Assembly: GCF_011039175.1 (NCBI RefSeq)
Contig: NZ_JAAKEN010000002.1
Location: 1 to 64,000 of the forward strand
Origin: Slackia sp. ZJ119
GTDB taxonomy: Bacteria > Actinomycetota > Coriobacteriia > Coriobacteriales > Eggerthellaceae
Length of the DNA: 64,000 nt
Direction: 5' to 3'
Within the stretch, counting starts at the first letter, position 1, and each line of letters opens with the position of its first letter. The notes under the pieces are model-generated. The model was not told the origin of the DNA, made no database searches, and saw only the letters and a program-made list of their open reading frames with translations. Shown here one piece after another: positions 41,556-58,713 of the stretch. Position numbers and translations under genes: made by a program.

Positions 41556-42686
41556 TTATAAGTCCTTTTCCACTATGGCCCGTTTCCGGATGATCTTGGG
41601 GGCATACGGAGCCGATATACAACGAACGTCTCTTTCTATCACGGCGCCCTTGTCGATGATCATGTTCCGCAGTTTTGCGCCGCTTTTGATACGTGAACCT
41701 GCCATGATAATGCAATTTTCGACGTCGGCGGTTTGCTCGACCTGCACTCCACGAAACACGATGCTGTTCTTCACACGTCCGTCAATGCTGCAGCCGTTGC
41801 CGAACAAGCTGTGCTCCACCTCGCAGCCGCGCGAAAACTTCGTCGGCGGCGCGTCCATCGTCTTGGTGTACACGGGGAATTCGGGGTTGAACAGGTCGCG
41901 GCGGACGTTTTTGTCCAGCATGTCCTGATTGACGTCGAAATACGACTTTACCGAGGTCACACGCCCGACGTAGCCCTTGTGCTCCACGCCTTCGACCTTC
42001 AGGTCGTGCGCGGCCGCCTTCAGCACGCCCTCGTCGAACTCGTATTCGCCTTCCGCGCAGCAGTCTTCCACCAAGCGCTTCAGCAGCTCCTTCTTCATGA
42101 AGGTCACGCGCATGTTCGCCACGCAGTTCTCGCTGCCCGTAGGCTCCTCCGTCACGTCGACCACCCGGTCGCCGTCCATCTCGAAAAACGTCACCGTGTC
42201 TATGTCGCCTTCCAGCATGCGCTTGTCACGAGTGTAGAGCACCGTGATGTCAGCGCCTGATTCGATGTGCCGCTCCATCAGCTCGTTGTAGTCCTGCCGA
42301 TAGAGGAATTCCGTGCCAACGAGCAGGCAATACGGCTGGCGCTGGTGGTCGATAAAGTCGCGCTTGCTCAAAAGGGCGTCCGCGAATCCGCGATACAAAT
42401 CGCTGCCGGTGTACAAGTCGTACGGGGGAAGGATGTGCATGCCGCCCACCTTCTTGGACATGCCCCATTCCTTGCCCGAACCCAAGTGGTCCATGAGCGA
42501 ATTGTAGTTGCGCTGCGTGATGATGCCGGCCGAGCGCACGCCGCTGTTGGTCAGGTTGGAAAGCAAAAGGTCGATCACGCGGTAGCGCCCCGCGATGGGC
42601 AGCGCCGCCGCCGAGCGCAGCTCGATCAGGTCGCGCAGCTGCGGGTCGCCCTGCCTGGCGTAGATCATAGAGAATGCGTTATTCAT
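41556..42686 (-). CDS. glgD: GlgD-type glucose-1-phosphate adenylyltransferase subunit
   Basis: A 376-residue nucleotidyltransferase-like protein followed by a left-handed beta-helix. The N-terminus ([21 protein letters not shown]) lacks the GGxGxRL pyrophosphorylase loop of catalytic GlgC, the mark of GlgD, which forms a hetero-oligomer with GlgC and raises its activity. Here the GlgC partner is the C-terminal half of the fused protein encoded immediately upstream. The ATG at 42686 overlaps the end of that gene by 8 bases (within KDDE-stop) and follows AAGGA, so translation is coupled. The alternative start at 42713 has no ribosome site. Confidence 0.9.
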
Positions 42687-45600
42687 CGTCCTTCGCTCCC
42701 TTCGGCTCAACAACCGCTCCCGGCTCCACCGTTTCCCCTGGAGCCACCACCGCGCCGGGCATCACGTAGGACCCCGCGCCCAACACGCACAGATCGCCCG
42801 GGCCGCCCACGCACGCCCCTTCGCCTACGACCACGTCTTCGGCCAGAATGGCGCGTTCGATCGTGGCGTTTTGCTCCACCTGCGAGCCCGACATGACCAC
42901 GCTGTCGGCCACAGACGCGCCAACGCCCACGTCGACGCCCTGGAACAGCACGCTGTGCACCACGTCGCCGTCGATGTCGCACCCCTCGGGCACCAGGCAC
43001 GTGTCAAGCCTGCTTCCTTCGCCGACGAGCGCGGCGGGCATGAACGGGTTGCGCGCGTAGATCTTCCACGCTTCGTCGGAAAGGTCCAGGCTGGGCTCTT
43101 CTTCCAGCAAGTCCATGTTGGCTTCCCACAGGCTGCCGACCGTGCCCACGTCGCGCCAGTAGCCTTCGAACTGATAGGCGAACAGCTTCTCGCCCGCGCC
43201 GAGCATGGCGGGAATGACGTTTTTGCCGAAGTCATGGCTGCTGTCGGAGTTTTCAGCGTCGGCCACCAGGTAGTAGCGAGCCTTGTCCCAGCTGAACACG
43301 TACACGCCCATGGACGCCAGATTGTTCGGCGGATTTTCCGGCTTCTCCACGAAGTCGGTGATGCGGCCGGTGTCGTCGGCGTCGAGGATGCCGAAGCGGC
43401 TGGCCTCTTCGATGGGCACCGGCATGACCGCGATGGTCGCGTCGGCGTCGTGGGCCTTGTGGAAGTCGATCATGCGGCTGTAGTCCATCTTGTATATGTG
43501 GTCGCCTGAAAGCACCACGAGGTATTCCGGCGCATAGCGATCGATGAAGTCGATGTTTTGGAACACCGCGTCAGCCGTTCCCGCGTACCATTCGCCCACG
43601 TCGCCCACGCGCGTGTACGGAGAGAGCACGTACACGCCGCCGGTCGGCGAATCGAGGTCCCACGGGGCGCCGGTGCCGATGTAGCTGTTCAGGGCGAAGG
43701 GCTCGTACTGGGTCAGCACGCCCACCACCCCGATGCCGGAATTGGAGCAGTTCGACAGCGGGAAATCGATGATGCGGTACTTCCCCCCGTACGGCACCGC
43801 GGGCTTTGCGCGAAAACGAGTCAGCACCCCCAATCGACTTCCTTGACCGCCAGCAAGAATCATGGCAACGCTCTCTTCGCGCTCTTTCATCTGTCGGATC
43901 CCCTTCCTCTTCTTGTACTCGAAATACACCGCCCCGAGCGGCGGCACGTCTACCCTGGCACGATAGGGCGAACCCTCGAAGGAGCCCCTTTCAGTATAGA
44001 TGACCCCGTTGCTCAGCTTTCCGGAACCGCCGAAGCGCACATCGTCGCTGTTGAGGGCCTCGACGAGCATGCCTTCTGCCGGCAAGCCTACGACCAGGCC
44101 TTTTATAGGATTCGGCGAGAAGTTGCAGCAGCACAGCACCGACGTCGCCGTGCAGTCGCCGTCTTCGGGAAGGTCCTCGGCGGACACGGCGTTGCGCAAG
44201 AAAGCGAGCGCGTTCTCGTCGCGGTTGTCGCGGTTGGCCCAGGCGAATCCCGCCGGGTCCATGTCGTCGAGCCACAGCGCCGCATGCGTGCGGTACACCT
44301 CGTTCAGCGCCGCGCTGAAGTCCTGCATCTGTTGGTGCGCGGGGAAGTCCAGCAGGTCCCAATCGAGCTGCGTCTGATAATTCCATTCGCTAAACTGGGC
44401 GAATTCCGACCCCATGAACGTCAGCTTCTTCCCCGGATGCGCAAACTGGTAGCCCATGAGCGCTCGCAGCGTGGAAAACTTCTGTTCGTAGGAGCCGAAC
44501 ATCTTGTCGATCATCGACTTCTTCCCGTACACCACCTCGTCGTGCGAGAACTCCAAGATGAACGCCTCACTGTAGGCGTAGTCCATCGAAAACGTCATCT
44601 TGTAGTGGTTGCCCGCGCGGAAGAAGGGGTCGGTCGCCACGTAGTCGAGCGTGTCGTGCATGAAGCCCATGTTCCACTTGAACGTGAAGCCCAGGCCGCC
44701 GACGTAAGGCGGCATCGTGACCATGGGGAAGGCGGTGGATTCCTCGGCGACGGTCGACACGCCGGGATAGGTGCCGAGCACCGCCGAGTTGAGCTTCTGG
44801 AAAAACGCCACGGCCTCCAAATTGATGTTGCCGCCGTCTTTGTTGGGAATCCATTCGGTGCGGCCGTAGTCGAGGTAGAGCATGGAGCTGACGGCGTCCA
44901 CGCGGATGCCGTCGATGTGATACAGGTCGAACAGGAACATGGCCGATGACACCAAGAAGCTGACTACCTGGGGTTTTCCGTAGTCGAACACGAGCGTGCC
45001 CCACTCGGCGTGCTCGCCTTTGCGCGGGTCGGCGTATTCGTAGAGGGGAGCGCCGTCGAAGGAGGCCAGCGCGAAGGCGTCGCGCGGGAAGTGCGCCGGC
45101 ACCCAGTCCATGATGACGCCGATGCCGTGCTCGTGCAGCGTGTCGACGAAGTACATGAAGTCCTGCGGCGTGCCGTAGCGCGAGGTGATGGCGTAATAGC
45201 CGGTGGTTTGATAGCCCCACGACGCCGGGAAGGGGTATTCCGTGAGCGGCATGGGCTCGACGTGGGTGTAGCCCATCTTGACGCAGTATTCGGCCAGCTC
45301 GTGGGCGACCGCGCGATAGTTGGGCAGCGCGTCGGGGTCGCCGTCGGGCAGACGCCACGATCCTAAGTGGAACTCGTAGACGGACAGGGGCTCTTTGTGC
45401 GGGTCGCCGGCGGCGCGGCGCTCCAAGTAGGCGCCGTCGTGCCAGTCATAGCCGCGCAGGTCCCACACCTTCGACGCCGTCGACAGCCCGTTTTCCGCAT
45501 GGAACGCGAACGGGTCGGCCTTCAGCCGGCTCTTCCCGTCCGGACCGACGATGCAGTATTTGTACAGGTCGCCGTCGTGCAGGCCCTCGACGATGCAGGC

Positions 45601-45831
45601 GTACACGCCGTTGTGCACGTGCACAAGCGGCGTGGCTTTCTCGTCCCAGTCGTTGAAGTCGCCGACAAGGGTCACGCTTTTCGCATGCGGCGCCCACACG
45701 GCGAAGATCCACGCATCCTCGCCTGCCTGCGGCAGCGGATGGCTGCCGAACGTGTAGTAGGCTCGTTGAGCGTCGCCCCTATCGAACAAATAGAGGTCTG
45801 TTTCCGAAAGAAACTGGCTGATAGGTTTCAT
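42679..45831 (-). CDS. glgBC: Fused 1,4-alpha-glucan branching enzyme (GlgB) and ADP-glucose pyrophosphorylase (GlgC)
   Basis: A 1,050-residue protein open across two complete enzymes. Residues 1-647 are GlgB: a CBM48 domain ([20 protein letters not shown]), then a GH13 barrel with [23 protein letters not shown] and [14 protein letters not shown]. From Met648 (ATG at 43890) residues are Glg[21 protein letters not shown], the site [37 protein letters not shown] and a beta-helix. A Shine-Dalgarno-like AGGAAGGGG at about 43900-43908 lies just before Met648, so separate GlgC might also be made. It is the first gene of the glycogen operon; upstream 45832-45900 must hold the promoter. Confidence 0.9.
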
Positions 45832-49494: not shown

Positions 49495-49887
49495 TCACAG
49501 GCCGCAAGCCGGGCCCTCGGCCACGGCAATTCCGCAGGCGTACTCCCCCTCATGGGTCGCTGAAACGTGGACGGACTCGATGCCGTGCGCGTCCAGAAAA
49601 GCTGAAAACGACGGGTTGCCAGCGACGAAGGGCGCACCGGCCGCAGTGTGAAGCACCTCGACGTCCTTCGTGTCGAACACGTCTTTGCCCGCTGTGGGAG
49701 CAAGCGCCTTGGTCACCGCCTCCTTCAGGGCGAGCATGACCGCGAAATGTTCCTCGGCCTTGCCGCGGGACCGGGCGTAGCTCCTTTCGCGCTGCGTGAA
49801 AGCGTAGCGCTCGAAGACGGGGTCCTCGTCGATCATGCCTTTGGTTTCGGGAATGCTCACCAGATCGACCCCTACGCCCTTGATCAC
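49495..49887 (-). CDS. acpS: Holo-acyl carrier protein synthase
   Basis: A 130-residue phosphopantetheinyl transferase that converts apo- to holo-ACP using coenzyme A. Family motifs are IKGVGVDLVSIPE at the N-terminus (metal-binding Asp) and FAVMLALKEAVTKAL (Lys-Glu-Ala). The GTG start at 49887 was chosen because AAAGGGGG lies just upstream and the typical AcpS N-terminus begins there. It diverges from the operon that contains an acyl carrier protein gene (51206-51454), so it may load that carrier; it is also the likely housekeeping enzyme if no other is present. 49252-49494 holds no further gene. Confidence 0.9.
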   Translation of the reverse strand: MIKGVGVDLVSIPETKGMIDEDPVFERYAFTQRERSYARSRGKAEEHFAVMLALKEAVTKALAPTAGKDVFDTKDVEVLHTAAGAPFVAGNPSFSAFLDAHGIESVHVSATHEGEYACGIAVAEGPACGL

Positions 49888-49972
49888 GAAAGCCCCCTTT
49901 TCCGCCCGACAGACGCCCCTTCCCATTGTACCGGCAACGCTTCGCGCCGTCATCAAGGCCGCCCCAGGGTAT

Positions 49973-49995
49973 TACCCGGGGTGCTTGCACGGGTA
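49973..49995. promoter_or_regulatory. Inverted repeat upstream of the esterase-ACP-kinase operon
   Basis: TACCCG at 49973-49978 and CGGGTA at 49990-49995, spaced by 11 bases, about 72 bases upstream of the esterase start in the acpS-esterase divergent gap. It is a candidate binding site for a dimeric regulator such as the NarL-type response regulator encoded at 55026. Confidence 0.35.
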
Positions 49996-50066
49996 GGTAT
50001 CGTTTCGGTTTCTTGGCGGTTTTCCTACCATGGAGGTTACCGAGATGCGAACCGAAAGGAGCAGCA

Positions 50067-51137
50067 ATGGCAAGCGATTTCTATCAGTATGACGACCGCC
50101 GCGACCCGAAGTGGGGCCTGCCCGGGGATGTGCGGGAAAACTGGAACAATCCGACGATCGCCACCTTTTTCGCAGACATCATGACGCCTGGCCTGAGCCA
50201 AGACGAGATCGACATGGGCCGCGCCATGTTCGAAGGCGCGTTCGAGTCCATGCTCTCCGGCATGACGATGCCGCCCGAGCTCGAGGCGGCAGGCGAGTGG
50301 GCGGAATACTGGGCGCCGGGCTGCGTCGAAGAGCCCGATGCGCCCGAGCTGCGCCTGCACGTCCGCCTTCCCAAGGGCGAGGGCGAGGGCAGGCGTCCCT
50401 GCATCATGTACTACTTCGCAGCCGGCATGGGCGGAAAGCCCGACTACTTCGATACCGAGATCGCCCAGTACAGCGCCGACCTCGGCGCCGTCGTCATCGC
50501 GCCGCAGTATCGCGCCCATCCCGAAGTCAAGCAGCCGGCGCAGCTCAACGACCTGCACGCCGCCTACCAGTGGGCCATCGACCACGCCGACGAGCTCAAC
50601 ATCGATCCCGACTGCATCGTGTTGTCCGGCTACAGCATCGGCGCGATGATGGCGCTCGGGCTGGCCTTCCGCCTGAAGAAGTACGGTATCACGCCGCGCG
50701 GCCTGTCCATCGTGGCGCCTCCGGTCGACGACATGGCGAACGGCCCCAGCTCCCGCATCAGCTTCGCCAGCGAAAACCTGGGCTGCGAAGAGCGCGTCAT
50801 CACGTGGCACAGCTTCTTCGGCGCGATAAACGTGGCACGCCCCGCCGTTCCCCCGGAGATCGTTCCCAACCACTGCACCGTCGACGACCTGCGCGGATTC
50901 CCGCCGGTGTTCATGCACATCATGGAAAGCGATCCCAACCGCGACGAGGACATCGAGTTCTGCAGCAAGCTTCTGGCGGCGGGCGTGATGACCGGCATGC
51001 ACCTGTGGCCGGGAACCAACCACGCGACGTTCTACAGCGGACCGATGTATGGGCTGAAGGCCAAGTTCTATGCGGAAGTGGAAAACGACATCAAGACCTT
51101 GATCGAGAACGACTGCCGTCGTCCCTGGTCGGCATAG
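50067..51137 (+). CDS. Alpha/beta hydrolase (acetyl-esterase/HSL-like)
   Basis: A 356-residue alpha/beta hydrolase of the abhydrolase_3 type. The nucleophile elbow is LSGYSIGAMMALG (GxSxG) and the acid and base are likely in VFMHIMESDPNRDEDIEF and GTNHATFYSG. The usual HGG oxyanion motif is replaced by FAAGMGGK. It lacks a signal peptide, so it acts in the cytosol. It is the first gene of a plus-strand series with ACP, phosphotransacylase, butyrate kinase and MFS genes, so it probably releases or transfers an acyl group. GAAAGGAG lies 6 bases before the ATG. The substrate cannot be named from sequence. Confidence 0.85.
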   Translation: MASDFYQYDDRRDPKWGLPGDVRENWNNPTIATFFADIMTPGLSQDEIDMGRAMFEGAFESMLSGMTMPPELEAAGEWAEYWAPGCVEEPDAPELRLHVRLPKGEGEGRRPCIMYYFAAGMGGKPDYFDTEIAQYSADLGAVVIAPQYRAHPEVKQPAQLNDLHAAYQWAIDHADELNIDPDCIVLSGYSIGAMMALGLAFRLKKYGITPRGLSIVAPPVDDMANGPSSRISFASENLGCEERVITWHSFFGAINVARPAVPPEIVPNHCTVDDLRGFPPVFMHIMESDPNRDEDIEFCSKLLAAGVMTGMHLWPGTNHATFYSGPMYGLKAKFYAEVENDIKTLIENDCRRPWSA

Positions 51138-51205
51138 ATTTGTTTGAGCGCTGCGGCCGCGAGATCGGCCGCAGCATTTCGTTTCATCTCTTGAAAGGAA
51201 GCACC

Positions 51206-51454
51206 ATGGCATTCACCAACGAGGAAATCACCGACATCCTGCTCGAGGCCGTCGGCAAGGCGATCAAGCGCGATCCCGCGACGCTTTCGCCCGACATGCG
51301 CTGGGTGGAGGATCTCAACTTCAAAAGCGTGCAGGGCATGAAGGTCTGCGGGCTTCTCAACTACAAGTTGAAGGTCACCGTTCCGCTGTCCGCGCTCATC
51401 GAGTGCGCGACGCTCCAGGACGCCGTCGACATGCTGGCCGGGATGGTGGAGTAG
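51206..51454 (+). CDS. Acyl carrier protein-like protein
   Basis: An 82-residue protein with the ACP fold (ITDILLEAVGKAIKRDPATL; WVEDLNFKSVQGMKVCGLLN). The phosphopantetheine serine is expected in NFKSVQG, where the normal Asp-Ser-Leu motif is replaced by Lys-Ser-Val; this is a divergent carrier, not the fatty-acid AcpP. The start is fixed by GAAAGGAAG just before ATG 51206. It sits 68 bases after the esterase and 53 before the phosphotransacylase gene, so an acyl group could be carried on it between these two enzymes. AcpS is encoded divergently nearby. Confidence 0.8.
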   Translation: MAFTNEEITDILLEAVGKAIKRDPATLSPDMRWVEDLNFKSVQGMKVCGLLNYKLKVTVPLSALIECATLQDAVDMLAGMVE

Positions 51455-51507
51455 GCGCCGCAGATCGGTTCCCACTGCGAGACAAACCAGGTTGAAAGGA
51501 AGAGGCA

Positions 51508-52482
51508 ATGGCCGATTTGAAGCAGATATTCGTCGATCGCGCACGTCAGAAGTGCCCGGTCGTCATTTTCCCCGAGGCTGAGAACGAGATCATCGCGAAG
51601 GCCGCCGTCGAAGCGGGCGCACAGGGCATTTGCAAGCCCGTCTTGGTCGGCGACGAGGGCGCCGTCAAGGGCTTTGTGGGCGAGGCGGACGTGACGATCC
51701 TCGACATCGACGCCCGCCCAGAACTGGTGAACGAGCTGGCTGAAGAATACGCCCGCCGCGAGGACTTCCCGGTCGAGGTCGCGGCCGATATGTTGAGCAA
51801 CAAGATCAACTATGCGAGCATGTACGTCGGCGCAGGCAAGGCCGATGCCATCGTCGCCGGCTACACCTGTGCGACGGCAGATGCCGTCTTGGCTGCTCAG
51901 GAGTTCATCGGCCTGGATGCCGACGCGGCCATGCCGAACGCCTACGTCATCGTGGAGCCCGACAACTTCACGGGCGGCGAGGACGGCATGCTCGTCTACG
52001 CCGACCCCGTCATGGTCGTCCAGCCCTCGAGCGAGGAACTGGCATCCATCGCCTTGAACACGGCCTCAAGCGTCGAGAAGCTGCTCGGATGGGAGCCTCG
52101 CGTCGCCTGCTTGTCGTTCAGCACCAAGGGCAGCGGCGGGCATCCAGACGCCGAGAAGGTGCGCCGCGCGGTGGAGATCGCCCGCGAAGCACGCCCCGGG
52201 CTGCTCATCGACGGCGAGCTGCAGCTTGATTCCGCCATCATCCCCCGCGTGAGCGAGAAGAAGATCAAGGGCGAAAACGTGCTCAAGGGAACAGCGAACA
52301 TCCTGGTCTTCCCCGACTGCGACGCGGGCAACATCACCGTCAAGGCGACCACGCTTTTCGCCAACGGCGGCGGCACCTTCGCCATCATGTGCGGCTTCGC
52401 CAAGCCGGTCGGCGAGCTTTCCCGCAACTCCGACATCGACGGCATCGTCTTTTCCACCGCAGCGACCGCTGCCCAGTGCTAA
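51508..52482 (+). CDS. ptb: Phosphate acyltransferase (Pta/Ptb family)
   Basis: A 324-residue PTA_PTB enzyme that exchanges phosphate for CoA (or another carrier) on an acyl group to give an acyl phosphate. It starts MADLKQIFVDRARQKCPVVIFPEAEN and has the signature region RVACLSFSTKGSGGHPDAEK and NILVFPDCDAGNITVKA. The strong features are those of Pta, while the partner gene is a butyrate-type kinase, so the gene symbol is tentative and acyl-chain specificity is open. GAAAGGAAGAGG precedes the ATG. It ends 11 bases before buk, so both are translated together. Confidence 0.88.
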   Translation: MADLKQIFVDRARQKCPVVIFPEAENEIIAKAAVEAGAQGICKPVLVGDEGAVKGFVGEADVTILDIDARPELVNELAEEYARREDFPVEVAADMLSNKINYASMYVGAGKADAIVAGYTCATADAVLAAQEFIGLDADAAMPNAYVIVEPDNFTGGEDGMLVYADPVMVVQPSSEELASIALNTASSVEKLLGWEPRVACLSFSTKGSGGHPDAEKVRRAVEIAREARPGLLIDGELQLDSAIIPRVSEKKIKGENVLKGTANILVFPDCDAGNITVKATTLFANGGGTFAIMCGFAKPVGELSRNSDIDGIVFSTAATAAQC

Positions 52483-52493
52483 GGAGGCGGGCT

Positions 52494-53612
52494 ATGACCA
52501 AAGAACAGTACCGGGTGCTTGCCATCAATCCCGGCAGCACGTCGACCAAGGCGTCCATTTTCGAGAACGACGCCGAGGTGTGGAAGGCCAACGTGGCCCA
52601 TGCCCCCGAAGAGCTGGCCGGCTTCGAGACGATCGGCGACCAAGGCCCCTTCAGGCGCGACGCCATTCTCGCGGCGATCGGCCAGGCGGGCTTGGACTCC
52701 CAGAACTTCGATGCGGTCGTCGGCGTCGGCGGCGTCGGGCTGGCCGGCGTCCCCTATGGCACCTACGGCGTCAACGAGACCATGCTCGACGACGCAGCGA
52801 GCGGAAAGTACGCCGCGCATCCGAACAACTTGGGCGTGATCATCGCCCACGAGATCGCCGCCACGTGCGGCGCACAGGCGATGGCGGCCGGCATGGCCTC
52901 ATCGGAGGAATTCCAGGAAGTGGCCCACGTCGGCGGATTCGCACAGACGCCGCGCCGCTGCTGCGTGCACATGCTGAACACCAAAGAGGTCGCGCTGCGC
53001 CACGCCGCCGCACAGGGGAAGTCGTACAAAGACCTGAACCTGGTGATCGCCCACGTGGGCGGAGGAATCACCGTCGCCGCCCATCGCAAGGGCATGGTGG
53101 TCGACGGCACCGACGGCGTGGACCAGGAAGGCCCCATGACGCCCAACCGCCCGGGCACGGTGAGGCTCGTCTCCTTCATGAAGCTCATCGCCGGCCTCAC
53201 ACCCGCCGAGCAGAAGAAGCTCGTCTCGACGCAAGGCGGATTCATGAGCCATCTGGGCACGAGCGACGCCCTTGAGGTCAAGCGGATGATCGCCGAAGGC
53301 GACGAGTACGCCAGCCTGGTCTACGACGCCCTTCTGTACCAGGTCGCCGGCTGGATCGGGCACATGGCCGCGGTGCTCAAGGGCGACGTGGACGGCGTGA
53401 TACTCACCGGCGGGCTCATGAACGACGATTACGCCGCCTCCTATATTGCCGACATGGTCTCGTGGATCGCGCCCGTATCCGTCTATCCGGGCGAGCTTGA
53501 AGGCGAGGCGCTCGCCGCTGCGGCGCTCCGCGTTCTGCGCGGCGAAGAAGAGCTGCTCGAGTACACCGGCGTTCCCGTATGGAGCGGGTTCGACCACCTC
53601 AAACGCGCATAG
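52494..53612 (+). CDS. buk: Butyrate kinase
   Basis: A 372-residue ASKHA acyl kinase that makes ATP from ADP and butyryl (or another short acyl) phosphate. It starts YRVLAINPGSTSTKASIFEN and has VIAHVGGGITVAAHRKG and GVILTGGLMNDD, the family sites. Length is slightly above the usual 355. AAGGAGG lies 7 bases before the ATG at 52494 and 11 bases after the phosphotransacylase stop. Together with it this gives substrate-level phosphorylation. Branched-chain or other carboxylic acids are possible substrates, given the unusual esterase and ACP upstream. Confidence 0.92.
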   Translation: MTKEQYRVLAINPGSTSTKASIFENDAEVWKANVAHAPEELAGFETIGDQGPFRRDAILAAIGQAGLDSQNFDAVVGVGGVGLAGVPYGTYGVNETMLDDAASGKYAAHPNNLGVIIAHEIAATCGAQAMAAGMASSEEFQEVAHVGGFAQTPRRCCVHMLNTKEVALRHAAAQGKSYKDLNLVIAHVGGGITVAAHRKGMVVDGTDGVDQEGPMTPNRPGTVRLVSFMKLIAGLTPAEQKKLVSTQGGFMSHLGTSDALEVKRMIAEGDEYASLVYDALLYQVAGWIGHMAAVLKGDVDGVILTGGLMNDDYAASYIADMVSWIAPVSVYPGELEGEALAAAALRVLRGEEELLEYTGVPVWSGFDHLKRA

Positions 53613-53776
53613 CTCAAAAGCGAAGCGTCCTTGGAAGGGGGCTGGGATTTCCCGGCCCCCTTCTCGCCAGGCGCCGCGGCGCGTCCCGGCTGCGGCCGAA
53701 CGAGACGCGCAGATCGACGCCGTGCGCCTCGTTCGGCACAACGCCCTCAAGCTTCTCGTTGAAAGATTGGTGTCTT

Positions 53777-55042
53777 ATGGCAAATGCTCGCGGAAAGGGC
53801 CGAAGCTGGGCCCAGCTTGTCTCGTGCTGCGTCTTGTGCGCCTTCGCCTTCGCCTTGCCCCTGCCGTGCTTCGGCGTCTTCATATCGCCGATGGTCGCGT
53901 CGTTTCAAAGCAGCGTGACCGACGTCAACCTGTATTTCCTGTTCCTGAACTCGGCGGCGGTGGCCTCGTGCGCGTTCGGAACGAGGCTGCTCGTGCGCCA
54001 TATGCGTGCGACGGTCGCGGCGTGCTCGGCGGCAATGACGGCGGGGTATCTGCTGCTCGCGGCGTTTCCCAGCGTCGCCATGGTGTGGGCGGCAGGCATT
54101 GTCGCCGGCGTCTGCTATCCGCTCTGCTCGTCGGTGCTCGTTCCCATCGTCATCAACCAATGGTTCGAAAAGGGACAGGGAACGCTCGTCGGCGTCTCTT
54201 TCAGCTGCGTGGGGGTCGCGGGAATCGCGTTCGGCCCGGTTCTGGCGGCGGGCATCTCGCTGCTTGGGTGGCGGGTGACGCTTGCCGCGGCCGCGCTCGC
54301 CATGGAACTGGCATGCGGCGTCGTGACGGCCTTCCTCTTGCGTCCCGCCTCGAAAAGCGCACGTGCCGCCGCCCCCGATGCCGCCGCAGACGCGACCTCG
54401 GCGGAACACGCTGTTGCAAGCGCCTCTTCGGCTGCAGCTCCTCCGGCGTATTTCGGGGCAACGTTCGCCTTCATGGCGGTCGCGTCGGTGCTCTGTGGCG
54501 TGATGGGAGACATGAACACGCAGATAAACGCCATCGCGCAGCTTTCAGGCTTCGATCCGGCCGCTGCCGCGCTTGCGTTCTCCTGCATCTCCGCCGGCCT
54601 TCTGGTGGGAAAGGTCGCTCTCGGCTTGCTCAAGGACCGGCGCGGCGCACTTGCGGCGATCGCCTTCGGATGTTTCTTGGGCATGGCGTCTTTCACCTGC
54701 ATCGGCTTTGCCGTGGTGGCTCGAAGCGCGGGCATGCTCTACGTCGGGGCGGCGGTCGCAGGCATCTGTACGTGTCTGGGCACGGTGGCCCCCGCGCTTT
54801 TGTCTGCCGAGGCGTATCAGGGCGCAGACCGCGTGAGGGCGGTCGGACATGCCACCGCGTTTTGCAACGTGGGCATGGCGCTCGGCGCACCGGTGTTCAG
54901 CCTGTGCTTCGATGTGGCCGGAACGTATCTGCCGGTGGTGTTCGGCCTGTGTCCCGTCGCCTTGTGCACCATTGTGACTACCGGGGCGTGCCTGCGCGGC
55001 GCCCGCCACGCGACGGCGAAGCCTTCTACAAACGGTCGATAG
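53777..55042 (+). CDS. MFS transporter
   Basis: A 421-residue protein with twelve hydrophobic segments and a soluble Ala-rich loop in the middle (about 195-225, ARAAAPDAAADATSAEHA). The pattern resembles OFA/MCT-type anion carriers that exchange organic acids. It lies 164 bases after buk on the same strand, so uptake of the operon's substrate or export of the acid it produces is likely. Its last 17 bases overlap the convergent response-regulator gene. The start at 53777 has a weak ribosome site; no better one is in frame. Confidence 0.85.
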   Translation: MANARGKGRSWAQLVSCCVLCAFAFALPLPCFGVFISPMVASFQSSVTDVNLYFLFLNSAAVASCAFGTRLLVRHMRATVAACSAAMTAGYLLLAAFPSVAMVWAAGIVAGVCYPLCSSVLVPIVINQWFEKGQGTLVGVSFSCVGVAGIAFGPVLAAGISLLGWRVTLAAAALAMELACGVVTAFLLRPASKSARAAAPDAAADATSAEHAVASASSAAAPPAYFGATFAFMAVASVLCGVMGDMNTQINAIAQLSGFDPAAAALAFSCISAGLLVGKVALGLLKDRRGALAAIAFGCFLGMASFTCIGFAVVARSAGMLYVGAAVAGICTCLGTVAPALLSAEAYQGADRVRAVGHATAFCNVGMALGAPVFSLCFDVAGTYLPVVFGLCPVALCTIVTTGACLRGARHATAKPSTNGR

Positions 55043-55682
55043 GCTCCGCGCCGCGATCTTGCGCAAGGTTGTGCGAGATCGCGTAGCTGACCAGCTCGGC
55101 CACGCTGTGCGTGTCGAGCTTGCTCATAAGGTTCGAGCGATGCCATTCGACGGTCTTGGCGCTCAGGTACAAATCGCGGGCGATCTGGGCGTTCTTCTTT
55201 CCTGCGACGATCTCCTGCAGTATCTCGCGCTCGCGGGGCGTGAGGGTCTCCCAGGGCTCGACGACGTTGCGCCGCTGCGAGCGAAGGGCGATGCGGGCAA
55301 GCGCCGGATGGAGATAGAACTCGCCGCGCTCGACCGCCCGCAGGGCGCTGACGAACTCTTCGCCCGCCGCCCGTTTCCCGATGCAGCCGGCGATGTCCAG
55401 CTCGAGTATCGCGTCGAGAAAGCTTTGCTCCTCGTGTTGGGTCATGACGAGGATCTTGGCGTCGGGAAATTCCTCGAGGATCGAAGACGAGGCCTCAAGG
55501 CCGCCCATGACGGGCATGGTCACGTCCATGACGGCGATGTCGGGGCGCGTTTGCCGGAACAGCTCGATCGCCTCAAGGCCGTTGGACGCTTCGCCCACGA
55601 CTTCGATGTCGCTTTCAAGCTTCGCCACCGCCGCCAGGCCGGATCTGAGGAGCGTGTGGTCATCGACGATGATGATGCGCAT
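55026..55682 (-). CDS. NarL/FixJ family response regulator
   Basis: A 218-residue two-component regulator. The receiver domain has acidic pair Asp7/Asp8, phosphorylation site Asp53 (IAVMDVTMP), Thr81 and Lys103. A LuxR-type HTH (about 143-205) reads LTPREREILQEIVAGKKNAQIARDLYLSAKTVEWHR. The start codon follows the kinase stop directly with GGAGG upstream, so the pair is co-translated. Its 3' end overlaps the last codons of the convergent MFS gene by 17 bases. The adjacent esterase-ACP-kinase operon is the obvious candidate target. Confidence 0.93.
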   Translation of the reverse strand: MRIIIVDDHTLLRSGLAAVAKLESDIEVVGEASNGLEAIELFRQTRPDIAVMDVTMPVMGGLEASSSILEEFPDAKILVMTQHEEQSFLDAILELDIAGCIGKRAAGEEFVSALRAVERGEFYLHPALARIALRSQRRNVVEPWETLTPREREILQEIVAGKKNAQIARDLYLSAKTVEWHRSNLMSKLDTHSVAELVSYAISHNLAQDRGAEPIDRL

Positions 55683-57245
55683 TTAGGCCTCCTCAAGCGC
55701 TCTGCTCGGTACGTTGAACCGGACGGTGGTCCCCTTTCCGGTGACCGACCCGATCCAGAAGTCGCCCCCGATGGCCTCGGCGCAGTCGCTCATGGCCTTC
55801 AGGCCCAAGCCGTCGCGCCCGTGCGCACCGGATTCGAACCCATCGCCGTTGTCCCTGATCCCGAGGGTAAGCCATTCGTTGGCATAGTTGATGAAAATGT
55901 CGACCGCCGTTGCGTGCGAGTGTTTGGCGCAGTTCGTGAGCGCCTCGGTGGCGCCGATGAGCAGCATGGACTCCTGCAAGGCTCCAAGGCGTACGCCCAA
56001 GGCGTTTCCCGAAAAGGCATGGGCGATGCCGACGCGGGCGAGCCGCGCCTGCGCGACGGCGTCGATGGCCGGTTTCAGGCCCAGATAGTTGAGTTCGTGA
56101 GGCCTCAGTTCTGCAGAAAGGCGGTTGATTTCCCTGAGCGCTTCGTCGGCTATGCGCTGGCAGTCGTCTATCGCCCCTCGGCAGTGCTCCAACTCCCCGA
56201 TCTCCATCAGCCTCGATGCCGCGGAAAGCGCCACTTTGAGGGCGACGAGGTTTTGGCTGGCGCCGTTGTGAAGCTCGAGGGCGACCCTGGCCTGCTCGTT
56301 TTCCACCGAGTTCAGCGACGCCTTCAAAATCGTGCTGCGTGCGGCCTCCTTGCAGCGCAGAAGATACAGGGCCGCAAAGCGCGATGCGAAAAGGAGGCGG
56401 CATTCGTCGGCAGTCGACGGCACGGCGTTGACCGAGACGGCGCCGATGAGGACGCCGTTGTCGACAAGCGGCATGATGAGGCGGTGCTTGCAGTCGTCGC
56501 AGTAGTCGGCGGGGACGGGCACGAGGTCTTTCCCTGCGTCGAAAAGATCGAGGAAGGGCAGGCGGGAAGGATTGCGCAGCCAGGTGCTGGCGACGGGCAG
56601 CACCTCGGCGCCAGGCGTCGCCGCCATGACGAGGCCGTTGGCGTCCTCGATGAGAGCGGCGCCTTTCAGCTTCTCGCAAAGCAGCTCGGTGATGGTCGAA
56701 AACGTTCCTCCGTTGAGGATCTCGTCCGTCAAGGGGATGGAGAAGGCGCACCTTGCCGCGCTCGCCTCGTCCAAAAGCGAGCAGAACGAATCACTGGTTC
56801 TGCCCTGCGCCCGCAACACGGCGTCGCGATGAACGGCCCCCAGCTCAGCGGCCCTGCTTTTCAGCAGATCGCCGTCGATGGGGCCGTCGCTGTCTGCGTA
56901 GCACGCCGTCAGGAAATAGCGTCTGCATGCGACGTCGGGAACACGGCACGCCGCCAGGGCCGTGACGCCGAACGAATCCAGGCCGGATCGAACGAGGTGG
57001 TCTTTGAAAGCGTCTTTGCTTATTTCAAAGACCTCGTCGCCGTGCGCCCGAATGGTTTCCGCGACGTCCGACGCACCGGCGACGAGGGGCGGCGCGGCAT
57101 CGGGCATCGCGGAGGCGAAGCAGATGGGGACGAGGGCTCCCGATCGCATCTCGCGGTAGAGGACGGTTGCCTGGGCGCGCGCATCGGATCGGATGCTCTC
57201 AAGCAGGTTGCAGTACTTTGCGGTCTCTTCCTCTAGGATGGACAT
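55683..57245 (-). CDS. Cytosolic sensor histidine kinase (HisKA_3)
   Basis: A 520-residue kinase without membrane segments. The N-terminal 300 residues hold one or two GAF-like sensory folds, with several cysteines, including the pair Cys249/Cys252 in YCDDCKHRLIMPL. The phosphoacceptor is His326 (RVALELHNGASQN), and the ATPase domain has TEALTNCAKHS, DNGDGF and GLGLKAM. It phosphorylates the regulator encoded immediately downstream. As it is soluble, it should sense an internal signal such as a metabolite, redox state or metal. The start lies in AGAAAGAGAGCCCGATG-type context. Confidence 0.92.
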   Translation of the reverse strand: MSILEEETAKYCNLLESIRSDARAQATVLYREMRSGALVPICFASAMPDAAPPLVAGASDVAETIRAHGDEVFEISKDAFKDHLVRSGLDSFGVTALAACRVPDVACRRYFLTACYADSDGPIDGDLLKSRAAELGAVHRDAVLRAQGRTSDSFCSLLDEASAARCAFSIPLTDEILNGGTFSTITELLCEKLKGAALIEDANGLVMAATPGAEVLPVASTWLRNPSRLPFLDLFDAGKDLVPVPADYCDDCKHRLIMPLVDNGVLIGAVSVNAVPSTADECRLLFASRFAALYLLRCKEAARSTILKASLNSVENEQARVALELHNGASQNLVALKVALSAASRLMEIGELEHCRGAIDDCQRIADEALREINRLSAELRPHELNYLGLKPAIDAVAQARLARVGIAHAFSGNALGVRLGALQESMLLIGATEALTNCAKHSHATAVDIFINYANEWLTLGIRDNGDGFESGAHGRDGLGLKAMSDCAEAIGGDFWIGSVTGKGTTVRFNVPSRALEEA

Positions 57246-57332: not shown

Positions 57333-57363
57333 AGGGCTGGCAGAATTGGTCAGTTTTTCCCTA
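57333..57363. repeat. Family 2 element end, copy 3 (partial)
   Basis: Read on the minus strand from 57363 it is tagggaaaaactgaccaatt then ctgccagcc, which matches the right end of copy 1 and left end of copy 2. It forms the TAG stop of the LuxR-type gene and lies between that gene and the histidine kinase gene. The other end was not found. Confidence 0.5.
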
Positions 57364-57696
57364 GGCCTCTCCCCAGAACTTCTGGAAGAGCTCGGGGCGG
57401 TTCGACACGCCGGCTTTCACGAATATATGATGAGTATGCGTTTTCACCGTTCCGACAGACACCTGGAGCTTCGAGGCGATGTGCTGATTGTCAAGGCCTT
57501 CCAACATGCAGGTAAGAATCTCTTCCTCGCGCGGCGACAGGTTGTGACGGCGTGCAAAATAGGGAATCGCCTCATACATCTGGCGCTGCTGCGGCTCTTC
57601 GCTCACTGCCGGGGCGCTTTCCCACGGTTTCACCTCTCTCTCGCATGTCGATGCCTCTCGAAACGAGGGACATCGCTTCTTGCACCAGGGAAACAT
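57361..57696 (-). CDS. LuxR-type HTH protein, short or truncated
   Basis: The clear part is the C-terminal LuxR HTH (about 65 residues): LSPREEEILTCMLEGLDNQHIASKLQVSVGTVKTHTHHIF. In related organisms this HTH commonly sits at the end of a long protein with twelve membrane segments; here no such part is encoded upstream, so this is either a small stand-alone regulator or the remnant of one. The start is uncertain: ATG at 57696 is used, and a GTG at 57633 with GAGAGAG directly before it is an alternative. It is on the same strand as, and upstream of, the two-component genes. The stop codon lies in a family 2 repeat end. Confidence 0.65.
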   Translation of the reverse strand: MFPWCKKRCPSFREASTCEREVKPWESAPAVSEEPQQRQMYEAIPYFARRHNLSPREEEILTCMLEGLDNQHIASKLQVSVGTVKTHTHHIFVKAGVSNRPELFQKFWGEA

Positions 57697-57891
57697 CTGC
57701 CAGTTTCGCCGGACCTGGCACAAGCGGGCCGGCGGCGGTCCCAAGGCCGAGCGCGTTCGTCGATGCGGGGCCGCTCCCGTCGGCTCACGGGCCGCCGCTG
57801 GCGGAGGGTCGCATCCGGCGGCGCGAGGCTGTTTGCGGCGCAAGGTCGCTATAGGCGGCGTGAGGTTTTCCCGCTCCCACCCTCGCCTTAT

Positions 57892-58374: not shown

Positions 58375-58464
58375 GGTTCGAACCCCCGCGAAGGGGCCCG
58401 GCGACGAAAAAGCCTCCCGCGGTCGGAAGGCTTTCGGTTTCGATGGTGGGCCGTGAGGGGTTCG
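58375..58464. repeat. 90-bp repeat, left copy (partial tRNA-Lys 3' end and terminator)
   Basis: 89 of 90 bases identical to 58569-58658. It contains the tRNA-Lys 3' end (gtgggccgtgaggggttcg) and the tRNA terminator hairpin but no rest of the tRNA. It looks like a remnant of a duplicated tRNA gene or of a tRNA-targeted integration. Confidence 0.8.
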
Positions 58465-58568: not shown

Positions 58569-58658
58569 GGTTCGAACCCCCGCGAAGGGGCCCGGCGACG
58601 AAAAAGCCTTCCGCGGTCGGAAGGCTTTCGGTTTCGATGGTGGGCCGTGAGGGGTTCG
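58569..58658. repeat. 90-bp repeat, right copy (in the true tRNA-Lys locus)
   Basis: The partner of 58375-58464, 194 bases away. Here the sequence continues into the complete tRNA-Lys gene. Confidence 0.8.
58601..58628 (-). terminator. Terminator of tRNA-Lys
   Basis: A perfect 11-bp stem (aaagccttccg at 58603-58613 with 58618-58628), 4-base loop, and a run of five T on the minus strand. It directly follows the tRNA gene. Confidence 0.85.
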
Positions 58659-58713
58659 AACCCGCGACCTTGGGATTAAAAGTCCCCTGCTCTACCAACT
58701 GAGCTAACGGCCC
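58638..58713 (-). tRNA. tRNA-Lys (UUU)
   Basis: Minus-strand cloverleaf: acceptor GGGCCGT/ACGGCCC, D-arm GCTC...GAGC, anticodon stem with loop CTTTTAA (anticodon TTT), T-arm GGGTTCGAACCC, discriminator A and an encoded CCA at the 3' end. Confidence 0.96.

Follow-up and report, generated by a model that had tools for sequence, protein, structure and literature searches.

A conserved acyl carrier protein–phosphotransacylase–butyrate kinase gene set in gut Coriobacteriia and its possible role in ATP formation

Pathways which form ATP from an acyl phosphate are taught as coenzyme A (CoA)-based, and acyl carrier proteins (ACPs) as biosynthetic. In the ptb-buk pathway, an adjacent transacylase and kinase convert a thioester to an acyl phosphate and then form ATP. 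The gene set analyzed here, located in a 64,000-nucleotide stretch of the Slackia sp. ZJ119 genome (contig NZ_JAAKEN010000002.1, positions 1 to 64,000; the window), shares the adjacent transacylase and kinase genes, and its kinase (Buk) belongs to the same family, TIGR02707. In contrast to the classical pathway, the transacylase next to Buk in the window is not a member of the Ptb family but Pta-like, and a dedicated ACP, a phosphopantetheinyl transferase (PPTase) and a front-end hydrolase or, in other genomes, a thiolase are linked to the pair. The nearest described system is HpdJ/HpdK from p-cresol and aromatic amino acid fermentation, in which Ptb and Buk homologues encoded in a substrate-specific cluster were proposed to cleave a thioester with the formation of ATP (PMC13285125). 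However, this system is CoA-based, with p-hydroxyphenylacetyl-CoA as the thioester, and the paper does not mention an ACP. The conversion of acyl-ACP and phosphate to an acyl phosphate has a precedent in PlsX (PMC10146087), which serves phospholipid synthesis and to whose family the window Pta does not belong. The PhlACB Friedel-Crafts acyltransferase combines a thiolase with a DUF35-like partner and transfers acyl groups without CoA, but it is biosynthetic and, by the abstract, has no link to ACP, Pta or Buk (PMC6392133). It is an analogue of the thiolase-type loci only, not of the window.

Malonate decarboxylase and citrate lyase are anaerobic catabolic enzymes with a dedicated ACP, the modified prosthetic group of which derives from CoA and is built by special enzymes. 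The loci described here differ from them in their linked AcpS/Sfp-type transferases, and no special prosthetic-group genes of that kind were found among the window proteins scanned by family models. According to the initial annotation of the window, no described pathway with this exact set was known to its author. We likewise found no description of an ACP-Pta-Buk pathway in the full-text literature, subscription papers being outside the scope of the search. The acyl phosphate logic is known, and it is the ACP as a carrier and the interchangeable front ends that appear to be new.

The host genome has a size of 2.84 Mb and a completeness of 99.9%, and its relatives, Adlercreutzia sp. ZJ473 and Candidatus Aphodovivens avistercoris with the orthologous locus, place it in the Eggerthellaceae. 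The set comprises, from left to right, acpS on the minus strand, the esterase, ACP, Pta, Buk and major facilitator superfamily (MFS) transporter genes on the plus strand, and the response regulator and sensor kinase genes on the minus strand:

49495..49887, minus strand: acpS, accessory holo-ACP synthase (PF01648, 49.1 bits)
50067..51137, plus strand: HSL-type alpha/beta hydrolase, esterase or acyltransferase (PF07859, 109 bits)
51150..51175, plus strand: strong GC hairpin, terminator-like, in the gap between the esterase and ACP genes
51206..51454, plus strand: dedicated ACP, 82 aa (PF00550, 30.2 bits, and alignments)
51508..52482, plus strand: Pta-family phosphotransacylase of a divergent, module type (PF01515, 238 bits; TIGR00651 below cut-off)
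52494..53612, plus strand: butyrate kinase-family acyl kinase, Buk (TIGR02707, 365.6 bits, above the curated cut-off of 289.1)
53633..53664, plus strand: 14-bp hairpin 3' of buk, also present in locus L010
53777..55042, plus strand: MFS transporter (PF07690, 73.9 bits, and NCBIfam)
55026..55682, minus strand: NarL/LuxR-type response regulator, convergent with the MFS gene (PF00072, PF00196)
55683..57245, minus strand: HisKA_3-type sensor kinase (PF07730, PF02518)

Open reading frames (ORFs) and family models thus agreed with all the gene families named in the initial annotation, as well as with the divergent orientation of acpS and the convergent one of the two-component pair, which is the sole convergent part. 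The ACP had also been described as divergent, which is wrong since it lies on the plus strand like the esterase, Pta and Buk genes. The set goes beyond the end of the proposed extent of 49495-55682 and runs to the end of the sensor kinase gene. The listed ORF of acpS reaches 49956, and its start is probably the GTG at 49887 (MIKGVGVDLV...).

The window ACP had matches in five of 138 Eggerthellaceae genomes. In four of them, G000, G136, G017 (Candidatus Aphodovivens avistercoris) and G029 (Adlercreutzia sp. ZJ473), the esterase, ACP, Pta and Buk genes are contiguous and in the same order. The products of the three loci other than the window are 75-98% (esterase), 77-99% (ACP) and 75-98% (Pta) identical to those of the window. 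Co-occurrence in other genomes, suggested earlier as a check, was therefore found as orthologous blocks in three further genomes, and this conservation rejects a chance or sloppy neighbourhood. In all four loci acpS, the MFS gene and the two-component regulators are near; acpS and the MFS gene change place, and both the response regulator and the sensor kinase are kept. Esterase orthologues (75-100% identity) are confined to the same four of the 138 genomes; the next-best matches in the family either are short or, when aligned along the greater part of their length, do not exceed about 30% identity. A tblastn search of plasmids gave no match. Within the genus, the genomes carrying the module (G000 and G136) have two AcpS copies, whereas those without it (G134 and G135) have one. 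The window acpS is therefore an accessory copy, and the alternative that it is a housekeeping gene located here by chance was rejected on the same grounds. The window ACP was also rejected as the ACP of fatty acid synthesis, whose gene is located elsewhere.

The gene set is not limited to this family. We surveyed 398 Coriobacteriia genomes, taking as Buk the proteins above the TIGR02707 cut-off and recording whether a module ACP gene lay no more than 3.5 kb upstream in the same orientation. Such an ACP was found for 50 of the 114 Buk genes (40 of the 71 genomes with Buk), usually at a spacing of 1.0-1.2 kb, which is the length of one Pta gene. A module ACP lies inside 30 kb for 81 of the Buk genes, and Buk is present in 56 of the 61 genomes carrying a module ACP. 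Fewer than one Buk-ACP pair would be expected by chance, by arithmetic from genome size. Because orthologous blocks occur in three genomes and so many Buk genes have an upstream ACP, the association is not due to chance, and the module is clearly a real and conserved gene set. In Coriobacteriia where Buk occurs in the absence of any module ACP, it is mostly paired with a Ptb-family transacylase, so that the type of transacylase and the carrier seem to change together. No module ACP above 61 bits was found among 296 genomes of other Actinomycetota. When named genomes were scanned with the ACP alignment, Atopobiaceae and two window-type genomes were gained, but nothing convincing appeared outside Coriobacteriia, collections beyond Actinomycetota being poorly covered.

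Three versions of the module were distinguished by what precedes the ACP-Pta-Buk core. A distant version is present in G063, the fifth ACP-positive Eggerthellaceae genome, where identities to the window proteins are 36% (ACP), 35% (Pta) and 40% (Buk); AcpS, an MFS transporter, a second HSL esterase and a CocE/S15 hydrolase lie at the same locus. The order CocE-ACP-Pta-Buk-MFS, with AcpS nearby, occurs in named Atopobiaceae, Olsenella sp. An293 among them. In the third version (L058, L063, L073, L076, L080 and L081), a thiolase and a DUF35-like zinc-ribbon protein come before a related ACP, followed by Pta and Buk. The CocE/S15 hydrolase and the thiolase with DUF35 are thus two alternative front ends on the same core. 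CocE-type and thiolase-type modules stand side by side, each with its own ACP, in L058 (8435-19001) and L063 (6100-19499). Small membrane-like proteins without a Pfam match recur in module loci (L013, 11479-11910; L073, 4866-5264).

The window ACP exceeds the PF00550 cut-off of 20.8 bits. Its predicted phosphopantetheine site is Ser41 (codon 51326-51328) in the motif DLNFKSV, and this serine is invariant in all 16 aligned module ACPs. In the window-type ACPs, the 16-residue stretch that begins with the serine is free of acidic residues, and helix II has a net charge of +3; other module ACPs range from -2 to -4 over that stretch, and a direct count for the strongly acidic stretch of the genome's own fatty acid synthesis ACP (SLDMVELICDLEEACD) gives -6. 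A basic helix II would explain why the window-type ACPs have a dedicated AcpS. A PPTase was found in about 25 of the 30 module loci fetched, some of the enzymes being AcpS-like and others Sfp/AcpT-like, and in L083 acpS lies between the hydrolase gene and pta on a single strand. That PPTases of different kinds recur at module loci speaks for a need to activate the ACP.

The window Pta scored below the cut-offs of all three transacylase models: 205.5 against 311.2 bits for the canonical phosphate acetyltransferase (TIGR00651), 54.5 against 410.5 bits for Ptb (TIGR02706) and 18.7 against 243.4 bits for PlsX (TIGR00182). The predicted structure has the Pta fold (mean predicted local distance difference test, pLDDT, of 87), with 1vmi, 6iox, 8fir and 1td9 as the nearest structures. 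In the Methanosarcina thermophila enzyme, Iyer and Ferry in 2001 reportedly assigned Arg87 to the 3' phosphate of CoA and Arg133 to its 5' phosphate. In the structure of the MaeB PTA domain, R535 and K538 of the '3' loop' contact the 3'-phosphate and R581 the pyrophosphate (PMC7902834); we took these residues as the counterparts of Arg87 and Arg133, equating them without a MaeB alignment. The catalytic pair Ser309-Arg310 is kept in all 39 ACP-linked Ptas. By contrast, the equivalent of Arg133 is absent in all 39 and that of Arg87 in 38, the remaining one having Arg by an uncertain alignment, whereas of 32 housekeeping Ptas all have Arg87 and 30 have Arg133. In the window Pta, the position of Arg87 is a gap or Ala, and that of Arg133 is Leu. 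Both arginines are also absent in four module Ptas without an ACP inside 2.5 kb, and all seven extra, low-scoring Ptas found in 60 Eggerthellaceae genomes were module Ptas.

The nearest solved relative of the window Buk is 1saz/1x9j. The esterase has the candidate catalytic triad S190, D289 and H319, assigned by homology, and its motifs GYSIG, ESDPNRDE and GTNH align to heroin esterase. The oxyanion motif HGGG is replaced by AAGM or ATGI in all four orthologues; the HSL enzyme of L013 keeps HGGG. TrLipB (7wol) and heroin esterase (1lzk) are the nearest solved structures, and the structure prediction, with a mean pLDDT of 56, served solely to confirm an HSL-like fold. The linked thiolases match the structures of PhlC and benzoylsuccinyl-CoA thiolase. 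Thiolases are known to transfer acyl groups to a thiol; both hydrolase types would have to carry out such a transfer as well.

Taken together, the gene linkage makes it somewhat probable that the module carries out ACP-based substrate-level phosphorylation, in which a front-end enzyme forms acyl-ACP, which is converted to an acyl phosphate and used to form ATP. In the window, the MFS carrier would import a substrate with an activated acyl group, and the linked AcpS would convert the dedicated ACP to holo-ACP. The serine of the HSL-type enzyme would take the acyl group and hand it to the phosphopantetheine thiol of the ACP, the divergent Pta would exchange the acyl-ACP thioester for phosphate, and the Buk homologue would phosphorylate ADP from the resulting acyl phosphate. 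In other Coriobacteriia, the CocE/S15 hydrolase or the thiolase with the DUF35 enzyme would form the acyl-ACP. The earlier proposal that the esterase, ACP, Pta and Buk make up one pathway from acyl-ACP to acyl phosphate is thus supported in part. Neighbourhood conservation speaks for it, and it is strengthened because unrelated front ends recur, PPTases are co-located and the Ptas lose the arginines reported to bind the CoA phosphates. The broader notion that Coriobacteriia from animal guts use a dedicated ACP instead of CoA with interchangeable front ends, and so gain ATP from an ester or C-C cleavage whose energy is usually lost in hydrolysis, seems to us evenly balanced.

Several points weigh against ATP formation through acyl-ACP. 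Its steps are read from gene linkage, and the whole chain could run backwards. Plain ester hydrolysis yields too little free energy for one ATP under standard conditions, so that an activated ester or a C-C bond would be needed in the substrate. One well-supported branch sets the module Ptas apart, and the arginine losses may therefore be one event. The CoA-type Ptbs (3 of 14 sequences aligned) also lack the Arg87 loop; the loss alone is thus no proof of ACP use, and as such a proof it was weakened by this control. The position of Asp316, reported as Asp in active Ptas (PMC7902834), is Gly in the window-type Ptas (4 of 39), and Glu in the other 35.

An ATP-consuming direction is possible but rather unlikely. 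Buk would then phosphorylate an acid, either short or aromatic, and Pta would load it on the ACP; the hydrolase or thiolase would transfer the acyl group to a product, to a xenobiotic or to a Claisen partner, which the MFS carrier would export. In principle, each of the three core reactions can run either way. The linked hydrolases belong to a family named CocE/NonD, and PhlC-type thiolase complexes, whose structures are among those matched by the linked thiolases, acylate phenolics without CoA (PMC6392133). Against this, further biosynthetic genes do not recur in L077 and L083, the minimal loci. Kinase-transacylase pairs in anaerobes are usually ATP-forming. The proposed function of the CoA-based HpdJ/HpdK pair points the same way (PMC13285125).

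If the Pta-Buk pair formed ATP from CoA esters, with the ACP and AcpS serving the hydrolase or another process separately, it would be hard to see why dozens of loci have the ACP gene immediately before pta, why loci with a classical Ptb beside Buk lack a module ACP, and why housekeeping Ptas retain the CoA-binding arginines. We regard this arrangement as improbable, although CoA esters are the normal substrates of Buk and Pta homologues and the arginine loss is not decisive in view of the CoA-type Ptbs. Exogenous acids, branched or short, can be activated by kinases of the Buk family, and the module might in this way feed short-chain acyl groups such as branched primers to lipid synthesis. 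However, the fatty acid synthesis ACP is separate and has a standard acidic helix II unlike that of the window ACP, the operon contains no fatty acid synthesis genes and most relatives lack the module, which makes a role in lipid supply very improbable.

The gaps in the plus-strand block up to buk are 68, 53 and 11 bases long. The gap between buk and the MFS gene has 164 bases and contains the 14-bp hairpin, which is possibly the end of an est-acp-pta-buk transcript. Strong hairpins adjoin acp in all window-type loci and in L013 (window 51138-51205, also next to acp in L010; L011 9533-9608; L012 9230-9319; L013 9356-9499); perhaps they raise the level of acp mRNA or set stoichiometry. According to NCBIfam, the MFS protein weakly resembles bile-salt, lactate and oxalate/formate carriers. 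A LuxR-type regulator without a receiver domain (57361-57843, minus strand) lies upstream of the sensor kinase gene; it had no match of its own in L010 or L011, and L012 was matched through the helix-turn-helix of the response regulator only. Elsewhere in the window, one 1050-aa ORF (42679-45831, minus strand; domains CBM48, amylase, NTP_transferase and hexapeptide) fuses a GlgB-like branching enzyme with a GlgC-like nucleotidyl transferase, and in L010 a long ORF shares this start. A 90-nt direct repeat (58375-58464 and 58569-58658, 99% identity, 194 apart) overlaps with its second copy the end of a tRNA-Lys gene (58638-58713). Conserved next to the CocE-type module in L049 (1328-2812) and in Atopobiaceae loci related to it are a flavoprotein similar to the vinylphenol reductase VprA (317 bits, cut-off 600) and an iron-sulfur flavoprotein similar to NADH dehydrogenase G. 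PucR-type regulators occur near Atopobiaceae modules and, together with the VprA-like flavoprotein, weakly hint at the catabolism of plant phenolics; phenolic esters and acylphloroglucinols are conceivable substrates.

The carriers of the gene set are gut bacteria related to Adlercreutzia and Olsenella. If the proposed ATP-forming function is true, the conserved ACP-Pta-Buk core with exchangeable front ends would represent a new scheme of energy conservation and would explain why hydrolases are tied to kinases in gut Coriobacteriia. The module ACP together with an arginine-poor Pta would then be a marker for further substrates, possibly plant phenolic esters.

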